From an uncultured Acidobacteriaceae bacterium (GTDB lineage Bacteria > Acidobacteriota > Terriglobia > Terriglobales > Acidobacteriaceae), in contig CAIVDV010000008.1 of NCBI GenBank assembly GCA_903904755.1, positions 1 through 64,000 on the forward strand: 64,000 nucleotides of DNA. Direction: 5' to 3'. The notes beneath the pieces are model-generated. The model worked only from the letters and a program-made list of their open reading frames with translations. It ran no database searches and was not told the DNA's origin. The translations under genes and the position numbers were made by a program. This document shows positions 8,219 to 58,456 of this stretch, in pieces. How positions within the stretch are numbered: position 1 is the stretch's first letter; each line of letters starts with the position of its first letter.

Positions 8219-9454
8219 GTGAACCCTTCTTCCCCTGTCCTCCCTGAAGATCCTGCCCACTCCGCACCCCGCACGCTGCTCCGCGTCCTCGCCGCCGTCA
8301 GCCTCTGCCACTGCATCAACGACATGGTGCAGTCCATCCTCCCCTCCATCTACCCCATCCTCAAGACCCAGTTCCAGCTCAACTTCTCCCAAATCGGCAT
8401 CATCACCCTCACCTTCCAGATAACGGCCTCCCTCCTGCAGCCCTTTATCGGCAACTTTACTGACCGCCGCCCCATGCCTATCTCGCTGCCCATCGGCATG
8501 GCCACCACCATGGTTGGCCTCGTCATGCTCGCCTTTGCCCCCACCTACGGCCTGCTTCTCCTCGCCGCCTCCCTCTTCGGCATCGGCTCGGCCATCTTCC
8601 ATCCGGAAAGCTCCCGCGTTGCCCGCCTCGCTTCCGGCGGCCGTCACGGCTTCGCCCAATCCTTCTTCCAGGTCGGCGGCAATACCGGCTCCGCCATCGG
8701 CCCTCTCCTCGCCGCCCTCCTCATCCTCCCCGTCGGCCAGCGCGGAGTCCTCTGGTTCACCTTCGCCACCCTCGCCGGCATCGCCATCCTCCTCTGGGTC
8801 AGCCGCTGGTACCGGCAGGAACTCCACTACCACGCCCGCCGCAAGACCACCCACCGCGACCTGCACCACCACCTCTCCCCCCGCCAGGTTGTCTTCGCCC
8901 TCCTCGTCCTTGTCGCACTCGTCTTTTCCAAATACTTCTACATCGCCTCGCTCACCAGCTACTACACCTTCTACCTCATCAGCCGCTTCCACATCACCGT
9001 CGCCAGCGCCCAGCTCCACCTCTTCCTCCTCTTCGGAGCCATCGCCGCCGGCACCCTCATCGGTGGCCCCATCGGCGACCGCATCGGCCGCAAATACGTC
9101 ATCTGGGTCTCCATCCTCGGCGCACTCCCCTTTACCCTCCTCATGCCCTGGGCCAACCTCTTCTGGACCGGCGTCCTCTCGGTCTTCATCGGCGTCATCA
9201 TCGCTTCCGCCTTCTCCGCCATCCTCGTCTACGCCCAGGAACTCGTCCCCGGCCGCATCGGCATGATCTCAGGCCTCTTCTTCGGCCTCGCCTTCGGCAT
9301 GGGAGGCATCGGCGCAGCCGTCCTCGGCAAACTAGCCGACATGACATCGATTGAGACGGTGTACCACGTGTGCGCGTGGCTGCCGGCGCTGGGGCTGCTG
9401 ACAGCGCTGCTGCCGAATCTGGAGCCGCATGGGAAGCAGGCCCGACGATCGTGA
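8219..9454 (+). CDS. MFS transporter, fosmidomycin-resistance (Fsr) type
   Basis: 411-aa, 12-span major facilitator. The N terminus (HCINDMVQSILPSIYP) and GIGSAIFHPESSRVA near 125 are typical of the Fsr branch; GDRIGRK near 290 is the half-repeat loop motif. Likely proton-driven drug or metabolite efflux; substrate not determinable. Start is GTG at 8219 with a weak ribosome site. Odd feature: from the start to about 9340 the gene uses almost exclusively C-ending codons (CTC, ATC, GCC), unlike neighbouring plus-strand genes, then switches abruptly to CTG/GCG for the last 35 or so codons while the reading frame stays intact. This suggests inversion or recombination with a junction inside the gene. 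Confidence 0.85.
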   Translation: MNPSSPVLPEDPAHSAPRTLLRVLAAVSLCHCINDMVQSILPSIYPILKTQFQLNFSQIGIITLTFQITASLLQPFIGNFTDRRPMPISLPIGMATTMVGLVMLAFAPTYGLLLLAASLFGIGSAIFHPESSRVARLASGGRHGFAQSFFQVGGNTGSAIGPLLAALLILPVGQRGVLWFTFATLAGIAILLWVSRWYRQELHYHARRKTTHRDLHHHLSPRQVVFALLVLVALVFSKYFYIASLTSYYTFYLISRFHITVASAQLHLFLLFGAIAAGTLIGGPIGDRIGRKYVIWVSILGALPFTLLMPWANLFWTGVLSVFIGVIIASAFSAILVYAQELVPGRIGMISGLFFGLAFGMGGIGAAVLGKLADMTSIETVYHVCAWLPALGLLTALLPNLEPHGKQARRS

Positions 9455-14377: not shown

Positions 14378-14965
14378 CTAGAAGCGGTAGACGAGGAATG
14401 CGCCAACGCGCCAGCGGCCGCTGCCAACGGAGGAGGACGGGGATGTGAAGGTGGACTTGAAGCTGCTGTGGAGGAAGCCAACCTGGGGGCGCACGTAGAG
14501 GAAGCGCATGAGGCGGAAATCCGCACCGCCATCCACCGCCCAGGCGAGGGAACTGGCGTTGGCGACCAGCGGGCTATGGTCCGTGCGGGTGTTGTTGACG
14601 TTCTCAAGGCCCACCAGCGCGTCAGCGAAAGGATGGATGTGGGGAGAGATGGATGCGGGCAGGAAGAGGCGCGGACCGACGAAGTACTCCGTCAGCACTG
14701 CTTTGTTAAAGCCGTTATAGAACGATACGGGGGCAAAGCTGACCTCGCCGGTGCCGGTCAGCCAGGGCGCGAGCGTGAGGTCGAGGCCGCCGGTCCAGGA
14801 GTAATTGGACAGGCTGGGATTGGAACCCGTGGCGAGGGCGCCGGCGTAGATGTCGCCCACATGGGGAGCTGAGCTGAGGCTGGGGCGCACCTGGGCCGAT
14901 GCCGCGGGCAAAGCCAGCAACAGAAGCAGCGCGCAGGCCAGGGGAGCAACGGCTTGCAGTCTCAT
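14378..14965 (-). CDS. Outer-membrane beta-barrel protein
   Basis: 195 aa from ATG 14965, with GGAGG six nt upstream. Signal peptide MRLQAVAPLACALLLLLALPAASAQ; mature part has alternating amphipathic strands, e.g. YSWTGGLDLTLAPWL, YFVGPRLFLPASI, FLYVRPQVGFL, and ends WRVGAFLVYRF, the terminal aromatic residue typical of barrel proteins. About eight strands fit an OmpW/OmpA-N-like barrel. Function unknown. The frame extends well upstream to 15520 but that part has no signal and overlaps the divergent mltG. Confidence 0.82.
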   Translation of the reverse strand: MRLQAVAPLACALLLLLALPAASAQVRPSLSSAPHVGDIYAGALATGSNPSLSNYSWTGGLDLTLAPWLTGTGEVSFAPVSFYNGFNKAVLTEYFVGPRLFLPASISPHIHPFADALVGLENVNNTRTDHSPLVANASSLAWAVDGGADFRLMRFLYVRPQVGFLHSSFKSTFTSPSSSVGSGRWRVGAFLVYRF

Positions 14966-56363: not shown

Positions 56364-56379
56364 TCATGATTTGTCATGA
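56364..56379 (+). promoter_or_regulatory. Candidate operator of the Phd-Doc module
   Basis: Two palindromic TCATGA hexamers (56364-56369, 56374-56379), 4 nt apart, 28 nt before the antitoxin start. Paired palindromes near the promoter are typical of autoregulated antitoxins; positional inference. Confidence 0.4.
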
Positions 56380-56407
56380 TAGCCTCGGGGAATCGAGGGA
56401 GGAAGCC

Positions 56408-56638
56408 ATGACGGTAGCGGCGCGGGAGAAGTTTGCCACGCAGGTCAACTCGGAGATTCTGCGCACGGTGCGGACGATTGCCCAGAGCGAGGGCCGGCAA
56501 CTGCAGGTGCTGGTGGATGAGGCGCTGGCCGATTTGATTGAGAAGAAGAAGCAGAGCCGGCCGCGAGCGAATGTGATGGCGGCCTACCAGGCGAGCCACG
56601 AGAAGTTTGCACCTGTTTACAGGAAGCTGGCGGAATGA
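56408..56638 (+). CDS. Antitoxin of Doc-type toxin module
   Basis: 76 aa; ATG 56408 with GGAGG upstream. Begins MTVAAREKFATQVNSEILRTVRTIAQSEGRQLQVLVDEALADLIE, a ribbon-helix-helix-like DNA-binding start followed by a basic/helical tail (HEKFAPVYRKLAE) that would wrap the toxin. Overlaps the toxin gene by ATGA. Not the classic Phd sequence, but size, position and overlap fit. Confidence 0.8.
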   Translation: MTVAAREKFATQVNSEILRTVRTIAQSEGRQLQVLVDEALADLIEKKKQSRPRANVMAAYQASHEKFAPVYRKLAE

Positions 56639-57006
56639 CGGAGTACCTGACTGTCGTTGAGCTGCTGGCGATCCATGACGACCAGATTGCGCGCTATGGC
56701 GGCGCGTCCGGGGTGCGGGATGGCGGGTTGCTGGAGGCGGCCATTTTTCGACCACAGACGGGCTATTATGCCGATCTGATTGAGGAAGCCGCGGCTCTCT
56801 GGGAAAGCTTGTCGCAAAACCACCCATTCCTTGACGGCAACAAGCGGACCGCCTTCGCCGCAATGTACACCTTCCTTGCCATCAACGAGGTCCGACTGAC
56901 CGCAAGCGCAGGCGAGATAGAAGATTTTCTGCTCAATCTGTATGCCACCGGCTCGTTTGATTTCGAGCATCTGTGCCCGTGGCTGCGGAGGAATGTTTCG
57001 TTCTAG
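56635..57006 (+). CDS. Doc-family (Fic fold) toxin
   Basis: 123 aa. Contains the Doc/Fic active-site motif HPFLDGNKR (His63-Arg71), which phosphorylates EF-Tu in characterised Doc toxins, and the N-terminal YLTVVELLAIHDDQIARYGGASGVRD with GLLEAAIFRP. Motif intact, so probably active. Coupled with the antitoxin by a 4-nt overlap. Confidence 0.92.
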   Translation: MTEYLTVVELLAIHDDQIARYGGASGVRDGGLLEAAIFRPQTGYYADLIEEAAALWESLSQNHPFLDGNKRTAFAAMYTFLAINEVRLTASAGEIEDFLLNLYATGSFDFEHLCPWLRRNVSF

Positions 57007-57133
57007 GGTTGGTTTTAGGGGTTTATTGCTGCAGATTCTGAATTTGTGACGGGTTGGTTTGCTAAGCGTGCGTGAACGGACCGGCGGTGCGGCCAGCGGC
57101 CTTCGGAACTGGGTGTGCTGGCCATTCGAAGTA

Positions 57134-57940
57134 TTATGCGTTGGGCTTGTTCAGCAGTTCTTGGGTCGCTCCTATAACAGTGAACACAGCAATCATTCCG
57201 GTATGTCCATTTTGTGGCTCCAGAATCAATGCCGCGGTTGGAAACCGGCCCAGTCTTCTTTTTATCTCAGGTATGCTGCTGCTCTTAGTTTTGATGGTGT
57301 GCCAATTATCAAAGACGTCGTGAAGAATCGTATCGACACCCGGGTAACATCTCACATCACTCGGATCCTTTGGGTTGCGTTCAAGAGGCATAACCAATAG
57401 ACCAATCACGTAATGCGGATGTACACGGCCGCCAAGCTTGCCGTAAGGACTCAGCTTCTTTATTTTTTCGCCAGCACATTTTAGGTAATCATTAAAGATT
57501 CTACTCACTCCACGATCTGTGTTGAGGTAATGGAGTAAAGTATCAGTAGTTTTTGGAGTTTGTGATCTTTTTGCTTCGAGGTAAAAGCTAAATTGCTCAG
57601 ATGCTACTTTCAATTCCGGAATTGTGGCCCAAAGATCCCACCTTCCTTTGCCGTTCTTGTTTCCAGTTTTGACTACATCACGTTCCTCAATAACCAAAGA
57701 ATCGGGGAACCCCTTTGAGATAGCGGCCGATAGGGTGCTTACAATCGCTCGCTCCGTATGCTTCCAGGGAATCTCAGGTTCGTTGAAAAGTTTCCCTGTC
57801 AGTTCGATATGACTTTCAAGATATGCAACCCATTTTTCGCATATATTTTCCAGTGCACCCTGGATTGATCTATGTTCGAGGAAAAATGGGTAATAATCTT
57901 CAGGTGGATTCGACGTGAAATATTCATGTTTGAGTGACAT
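57134..57940 (-). CDS. Candidate PD-(D/E)XK nuclease-like protein in an AT-rich island
   Basis: 267 aa from ATG 57940 (AAAGGA 10 nt upstream; a longer frame to 57994 is less likely). Residues match the nuclease pattern: Glu63 in a helix (HTERAIVSTL), Asp102 in RWDLWA and Glu122-x-Lys124 in FYLEAKR, the layout E...D...ExK. GFPDSLVIEERDV precedes them. C-terminal half (VIGLLVMPLERNPKDPSDVRCYPGVDTI) is unassigned. No named family is recognised. The DNA is visibly AT-richer than its neighbours and codon use is less GC-biased (ATT, TTT, AAA common), suggesting acquisition. Adjacent to Phd-Doc (converging) and the 88-aa gene. Confidence 0.65.
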   Translation of the reverse strand: MSLKHEYFTSNPPEDYYPFFLEHRSIQGALENICEKWVAYLESHIELTGKLFNEPEIPWKHTERAIVSTLSAAISKGFPDSLVIEERDVVKTGNKNGKGRWDLWATIPELKVASEQFSFYLEAKRSQTPKTTDTLLHYLNTDRGVSRIFNDYLKCAGEKIKKLSPYGKLGGRVHPHYVIGLLVMPLERNPKDPSDVRCYPGVDTILHDVFDNWHTIKTKSSSIPEIKRRLGRFPTAALILEPQNGHTGMIAVFTVIGATQELLNKPNA

Positions 57941-58051
57941 AGCAGAGCAGTCCTTTCTATACCAGTGTGATGGCGCTAGTCGTAGGGTGACCAAGTCCCT
58001 GGCAATTTTTAACCGATCTCAAAACAAAGGTGCGCAAGCCGCCGGTCGCGC

Positions 58052-58318
58052 CTAGGATCGATTGAAAAGGTATGCGAACTTTGTTTGCAAATACTCCTTA
58101 TTTTGATCCTCGCGTTGCCTGCACATCACCAAGATGTCCGGGCCTGACAATTCGATGGTTGCGACATACTGAAGGGGCGCAGTTGCCGTCGCGATTTCCC
58201 ATCTGTACGGCATTTGGCTACCGTCATTCTTTTGCGTCACGCTAAGCGCGGGGCCCGCAATCGTCTCAAGAAGCCTTCCATAAGTGCCAATTTCTTGTTG
58301 CATGGTCATCGTGGGCAT
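58052..58318 (-). CDS. Small protein of unknown function in the AT-rich island
   Basis: 88 aa; ATG 58318 with AAAGGA nine nt upstream. MPTMTMQQEIGTYGRLLETIAGPALSVTQ, mostly soluble, ends KFAYLFNRS. Lies 111 nt upstream of the PD-(D/E)XK-like gene on the same strand. No motif. It may be a partner of the larger protein; nothing else can be said. Confidence 0.5.
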   Translation of the reverse strand: MPTMTMQQEIGTYGRLLETIAGPALSVTQKNDGSQMPYRWEIATATAPLQYVATIELSGPDILVMCRQREDQNKEYLQTKFAYLFNRS

Positions 58319-58456
58319 CTCGAATTTTCCTTTGCTGTGCTAAAGCCTATCACAGCTTCAAATACCGGCATACGATTTGCGCGACAAAAAGAATCGAAGG
58401 GCGAAAGCCAACAAATTGTTCGAGGCAAAAAGTGAAGGGTGGGAGACCCTGCGGAG

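Follow-up and report, generated by a model that had tools for sequence, protein, structure and literature searches.

In the PD-(D/E)XK superfamily, motifs I to III consist of a Glu, then an Asp and then a Glu-x-Lys (PMC1913061, PMC1189080), and sequence or profile similarity between true members is commonly missing (PMC1189080). The same order of residues is found in a 268-aa protein encoded in the window, the 64,000-nucleotide stretch of DNA from an uncultured Acidobacteriaceae bacterium that we analyzed. Judging from its sequence and those of its relatives, we propose that this protein is a horizontally mobile, stand-alone PD-(D/E)XK-type nuclease, probably with a restriction- or defence-like function. 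We give this joint statement a probability of about 0.55, a figure that reflects a role stated only as probable.

The predicted nuclease gene lies on the minus strand at 57134..57940, a feature called from its ORF, a Shine-Dalgarno sequence, its relatives and their invariant residues. The reading frame (57134-57994) opens at a TTG and spans 286 codons; the ATG at 57940, which yields the 268-aa protein, is preceded by AAAGGA, a good Shine-Dalgarno sequence that backs it as the likely start. Counted from this ATG, the candidate active site comprises Glu63 (motif I), Asp102 (motif II) and Glu122-x-Lys124 (motif III), all present as listed in the original prediction. Upstream on the same strand, across a gap of 111 bp, lies an 88-aa ORF (58052..58318) that has its own Shine-Dalgarno sequence, AAAGGAA. 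The drop in GC relative to all neighbors and the shift in codon use that had been described earlier were both borne out. The GC content of 57134-58318 is 46.5%, compared with 62.5% on average (sd 2.8) in the other 1185-bp segments of the window (z ~ -5.7), and the lowest comparable segment elsewhere has 54.8%. Segments of 500 bp with a GC content below 50% occur only at 56913-58440, and their union (56913..58440) roughly delimits what appears to be an acquired segment. GC3 is 0.42 in the nuclease gene and 0.61 in the 88-aa ORF, compared with 0.84-0.86 in pgi and GH3 and 0.71-0.76 in the adjacent toxin-antitoxin (TA) pair.

This TA pair is encoded on the plus strand by a 90-aa RHH-like antitoxin ORF (56366..56638), recognized by weak model matches and overlapping doc by 4 bp, and by the ORF of a 123-aa Doc toxin (56635..57006) with an HPFLDGNKR Fic-type motif. 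The original prediction of a Phd-Doc neighbor was correct with regard to Doc, which matched TIGR01550 (1.5e-18, above cut-off) and phrog_577 (2.5e-34), but not with regard to Phd: the antitoxin gave weak RHH matches (PF20605, below cut-off at 2.1e-4), and the Phd models of Pfam, NCBIfam and PHROGs all failed to match it. The GH3 neighbor was verified by close GH3 homologues in all congeners. Although the Doc/RHH module adjoins the nuclease gene, it lies on the opposite strand and differs in GC, and other TA types are present at other loci; therefore, the two probably do not form one system.

We searched genomes of this phylum with successively deeper profiles, in overlapping samples that amounted to 1996 genome look-ups, and found five relatives of the 268-aa protein. 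One is a paralogue on contig C20 of the window's own genome, disrupted by both a frameshift and a TAG. The G723 relative is intact with 282 aa, and so is that of G1053, in which a TAG at the end is its own stop codon; the G1047 relative is frameshifted, and that of G654 is a C-terminal fragment that reads in frame into a serine resolvase. Three of the five relatives are broken or partial. The dN/dS between the G1053 and G1047 genes is ~0.29, showing that the protein has been under purifying selection, though one of this pair is now broken. Weak matches in G1006, G1034 and G806 were inspected and rejected. Degenerate-pattern scans of genome contigs and viral contigs detected no relative, tblastn of phages and plasmids gave nothing directly related to the window protein, and literature searches on integron-borne defence and on defence islands of Acidobacteria turned up no name for the family.

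Five copies could be aligned, three as intact frames and two read across breaks, with pairwise identities of 39-62%. Glu63, Asp102 and Glu122-Ala-Lys124 are invariant in all of them. The core alignment contains 51 invariant columns, among them Glu56, Glu63, Glu86, Asp102, Leu103, Trp104, FYLEAK (119-124), Asp151, His174 and His176; FYLEAK and DLW are among the longest conserved runs, and the conserved C-terminal half includes the segments RxHxHyVIG...RxPTxA...GxxAxF. Glu63 would probably lie in a helix. The conserved pattern points strongly to a PD-(D/E)XK-type site, and we are fairly confident that a nuclease-type site is real.

The earlier claim that the protein resembles no named family stands, since searches of Pfam, NCBIfam, PHROGs, PADLOC and PDB sequences returned no meaningful match; the best hit in the PADLOC catalogue of defence systems (PDC-M02B, E 0.067) falls outside the motif region. 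A profile built from the five rows matched the core region of a protein from another family of the phylum (G324) with an E value of 0.0015. This was the best match of a 396-genome scan, and the value, which is per genome, is borderline for 396 genomes; thus, the G324 link rests on motif agreement and on hhalign, both computed after selection. The G324 protein in turn matched a Vibrio plasmid protein, WP_235676569.1 (tblastn E 0.1 in the collection searched; BLASTP E 3e-9 for the pair), and hhalign of the Acidobacteriaceae profile against these two gave a probability of 95.9 and an E value of 6e-9 over residues 30-127. In all seven sequences, P(W/Y)xxxE, a Glu at 86, GxxDL and EAK follow one another in this order, and the bipartite D...(D/E)xK motif and the acidic motif I residue of the window protein are matched in both far relatives. 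Both share its P(W/Y)xxxE, (E)E, GRxDL, EAK core, but the Vibrio and G324 proteins are shorter (206 and 244 aa) and differ in the C-terminal half, and the identity of the G324 protein is ~20-24%. Invariance in five copies and recurrence of the core in two far relatives strengthen the original reading of a candidate nuclease.

The Vibrio gene (L096:3977-4597) resides on plasmid p1ST2 of Vibrio sp. within a series of small genes on one strand, typical of an integron cassette array; the spacers of this series resemble Vibrio attC repeats by eye, and it may be called integron-like. A TIR-domain gene is also present in this array. The G324 locus contains a CopG/RHH-like ORF and, after it, a PIN-like ORF, the former weakly supported as RHH and the latter recognized by eye only. 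A Phaeobacter match was rejected as a relative, since it sits in a transposase-like ORF.

The original prediction would have been contradicted by an island of normal GC at the same site in all relatives; instead, the nuclease gene is absent from 14/14 congeners. GH3, GNAT and the three following window genes are arranged in the same order in G010 and G001, with no island beside GH3, and upstream of pgi the window gene order is kept in no congener. Every nuclease copy other than the G654 fragment has a lower GC content than the locus around it, with only a slight difference at G1047. The copies of G1047 and G1053, which come from a different genus, share more identity with the window copy (47-48%) than does the C20 paralogue (41%). 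G723 is a congener of G1047 and G1053, and its copy resembles theirs no more than it resembles the window copy. Judged by pairwise identities rather than by a tree, the gene relationships do not appear to follow the species.

The neighborhoods of the relatives differ from one another. The C20 paralogue lies beside a ParD gene and a ParE-like toxin gene. The G723 gene has a DUF4258 and MqsA/YgiT-like pair 1.4 kb away and a 125-aa MWVFT gene upstream across a 37-bp gap. At G1047, a tyrosine integrase, a Sel1-like ORF and a 1605-aa SF1-type helicase flank the broken copy, with a tRNA 3'-half-like stretch on the far side; these genes, together with others of unclear kind, occupy L092:4216-14954 (tRNA-like stretch near 14902-14940), which is a probable integrative element. 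At G654, the resolvase ORF (L075:7973-8728) is joined in frame to the end of the nuclease-family gene, and a tRNA-Ser (8822-8911) directly adjoins it; an element seems to have inserted into a nuclease gene. Of the six loci, G1047 alone has the look of a defence island.

Several side observations were made at these loci. The MWVFT genes (L074:8575-8952 and L093:3959-4321) encode a protein with no family match in Pfam and NCBIfam; a 59% identical copy is present in the window's genome (C54), and others are found on Rhodothermus plasmids and on a Pseudomonas plasmid with phage-like genes. The contig of the broken paralogue carries a gene (L004:7630-8406) with a weak match to DNA/RNA non-specific endonucleases (PF13930, below cut-off at E 0.001). 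Close to the G1053 gene, a 93-aa ORF can be read as GIY-YIG from its motif alone and had no PDB match.

The suggestion that the locus is a defence or mobile element-derived system fared differently in its two parts. Absence from congeners, decayed copies, low GC and recombinase or TA neighbors support horizontal movement of the gene and a rare, patchy family, whereas PADLOC provided no match and no defence partner is conserved, so that a defence role, taken by itself, seems to us somewhat less than an even bet. At the loci examined, TA genes lie near several copies, but their types all differ, which points to shared residence in variable DNA rather than to one system. Since TA genes are common in such regions, their proximity could be a coincidence. 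No cognate methyltransferase was recognizable by inspection of the ORFs at 53-64 kb or around the relatives.

The same mobility would also suit a selfish nuclease, cargo or an accessory of an integrative element or an integron-like cassette, that serves DNA transfer, repair or competition between elements rather than protection of the host from phages. Copies beside a tyrosine integrase or fused to a serine resolvase next to tRNA-Ser, the far relative within a Vibrio plasmid cassette array and the several broken copies, as would be expected for dispensable cargo, are consistent with this possibility. However, the stretches read of the window, G723 and G1053 showed no recombinase, and no partner recurs consistently. 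Around the window gene, we found no convincing flanking or att-like repeats, and no attC site (RYYYAAC...GTTRRRY pair) was found at 55-60 kb. We regard such an element-serving nuclease as unlikely, although it is the strongest of the rival explanations.

A small upstream protein that restrains a cell-harming nuclease, as in a TA or effector-immunity pair, would be in line with the position of the 88-aa ORF ahead of the nuclease gene on the same strand, with both genes AT-rich. The 88-aa protein is predicted to fold moderately well even from a single sequence (pLDDT 73, one helix and five strands), and the G723 gene also has a small gene directly upstream. Nevertheless, the 88-aa and 125-aa proteins are unrelated, and the C20 and G1047 loci have neither. 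Searches for homologues of the 88-aa ORF in its genome, the viral contigs and the remaining nuclease loci found none, a fold search with its model gave poor matches only (best E 0.3), and plasmid matches proved to be chance ones, with that in Caballeronia falling in a transporter. Therefore, the companion status that the original prediction had assigned to this ORF is unsupported; it is possibly a separate gene, and we consider a two-gene system very unlikely. Hardly better is the prospect that the 268-aa protein has a nuclease fold without nuclease activity, or another fold in which E...D...ExK arose by coincidence. Its single-sequence AlphaFold model has a pLDDT of 36, and no database family matches it, but all four residues remain unchanged between strongly diverged copies and recur in both far relatives with a superfamily-like spacing, and we find this reading improbable.

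Overall, we prefer the stand-alone nuclease, whose fold, catalysis, substrate and defence role we infer as follows. The 268-aa protein would be a metal-dependent PD-(D/E)XK (restriction-endonuclease-like) nuclease of a rare unnamed family, which would spread between Acidobacteriaceae by horizontal transfer, as a lone gene in TA-rich variable DNA. Glu63, Asp102 and Glu122 may hold the metal, Lys124 may position the attacking water, and the C-terminal half (RxHxHyVIG, RxPTxA, GxxAxF) may contribute to substrate recognition or dimerisation. Because no methyltransferase partner accompanies it, the enzyme is taken to cut foreign or abnormal nucleic acid, possibly in type IV-like or conditional defence. 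We counted the lack of a matching family model or solved structure, and of a conserved partner gene, against this explanation. We further speculate, as a doubtful extension, that a widespread and very diverged nuclease branch (P[WY]xxxE - EE - GRxDLW - EAK) travels as single-gene cargo in Acidobacteriota and Vibrio integron cassettes and provides one-gene anti-phage or anti-plasmid defence.

If the preferred explanation is right, an unnamed family would be added to the PD-(D/E)XK superfamily, and the window gene, the two intact Acidobacteriaceae relatives and the G324 and Vibrio genes would form a small testable set for a one-gene nuclease missing from the PADLOC catalogue. Otherwise, the locus would hold one more orphan mobile gene, and the conservation of the motif makes the two outcomes easy to tell apart.

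In comparison with known systems, sequence similarity of the 268-aa family to PD-(D/E)XK superfamily members in Pfam or PDB was not detectable, and neither the surroundings of GxxDLW and FYLEAK nor the conserved C-terminal half is matched elsewhere. Nevertheless, the family has in common with superfamily members (archaeal Hjc, YraN and DUF524/DUF1703-type proteins; PMC1913061, PMC1189080) a Glu in a likely helix, an Asp and, 20 residues on, a Glu-x-Lys. No known restriction-enzyme model matches the protein, and it has no NTPase domain; with type IV restriction enzymes and solitary restriction nucleases, however, it shares the arrangement of a stand-alone candidate nuclease that resides in variable DNA with no methyltransferase nearby.
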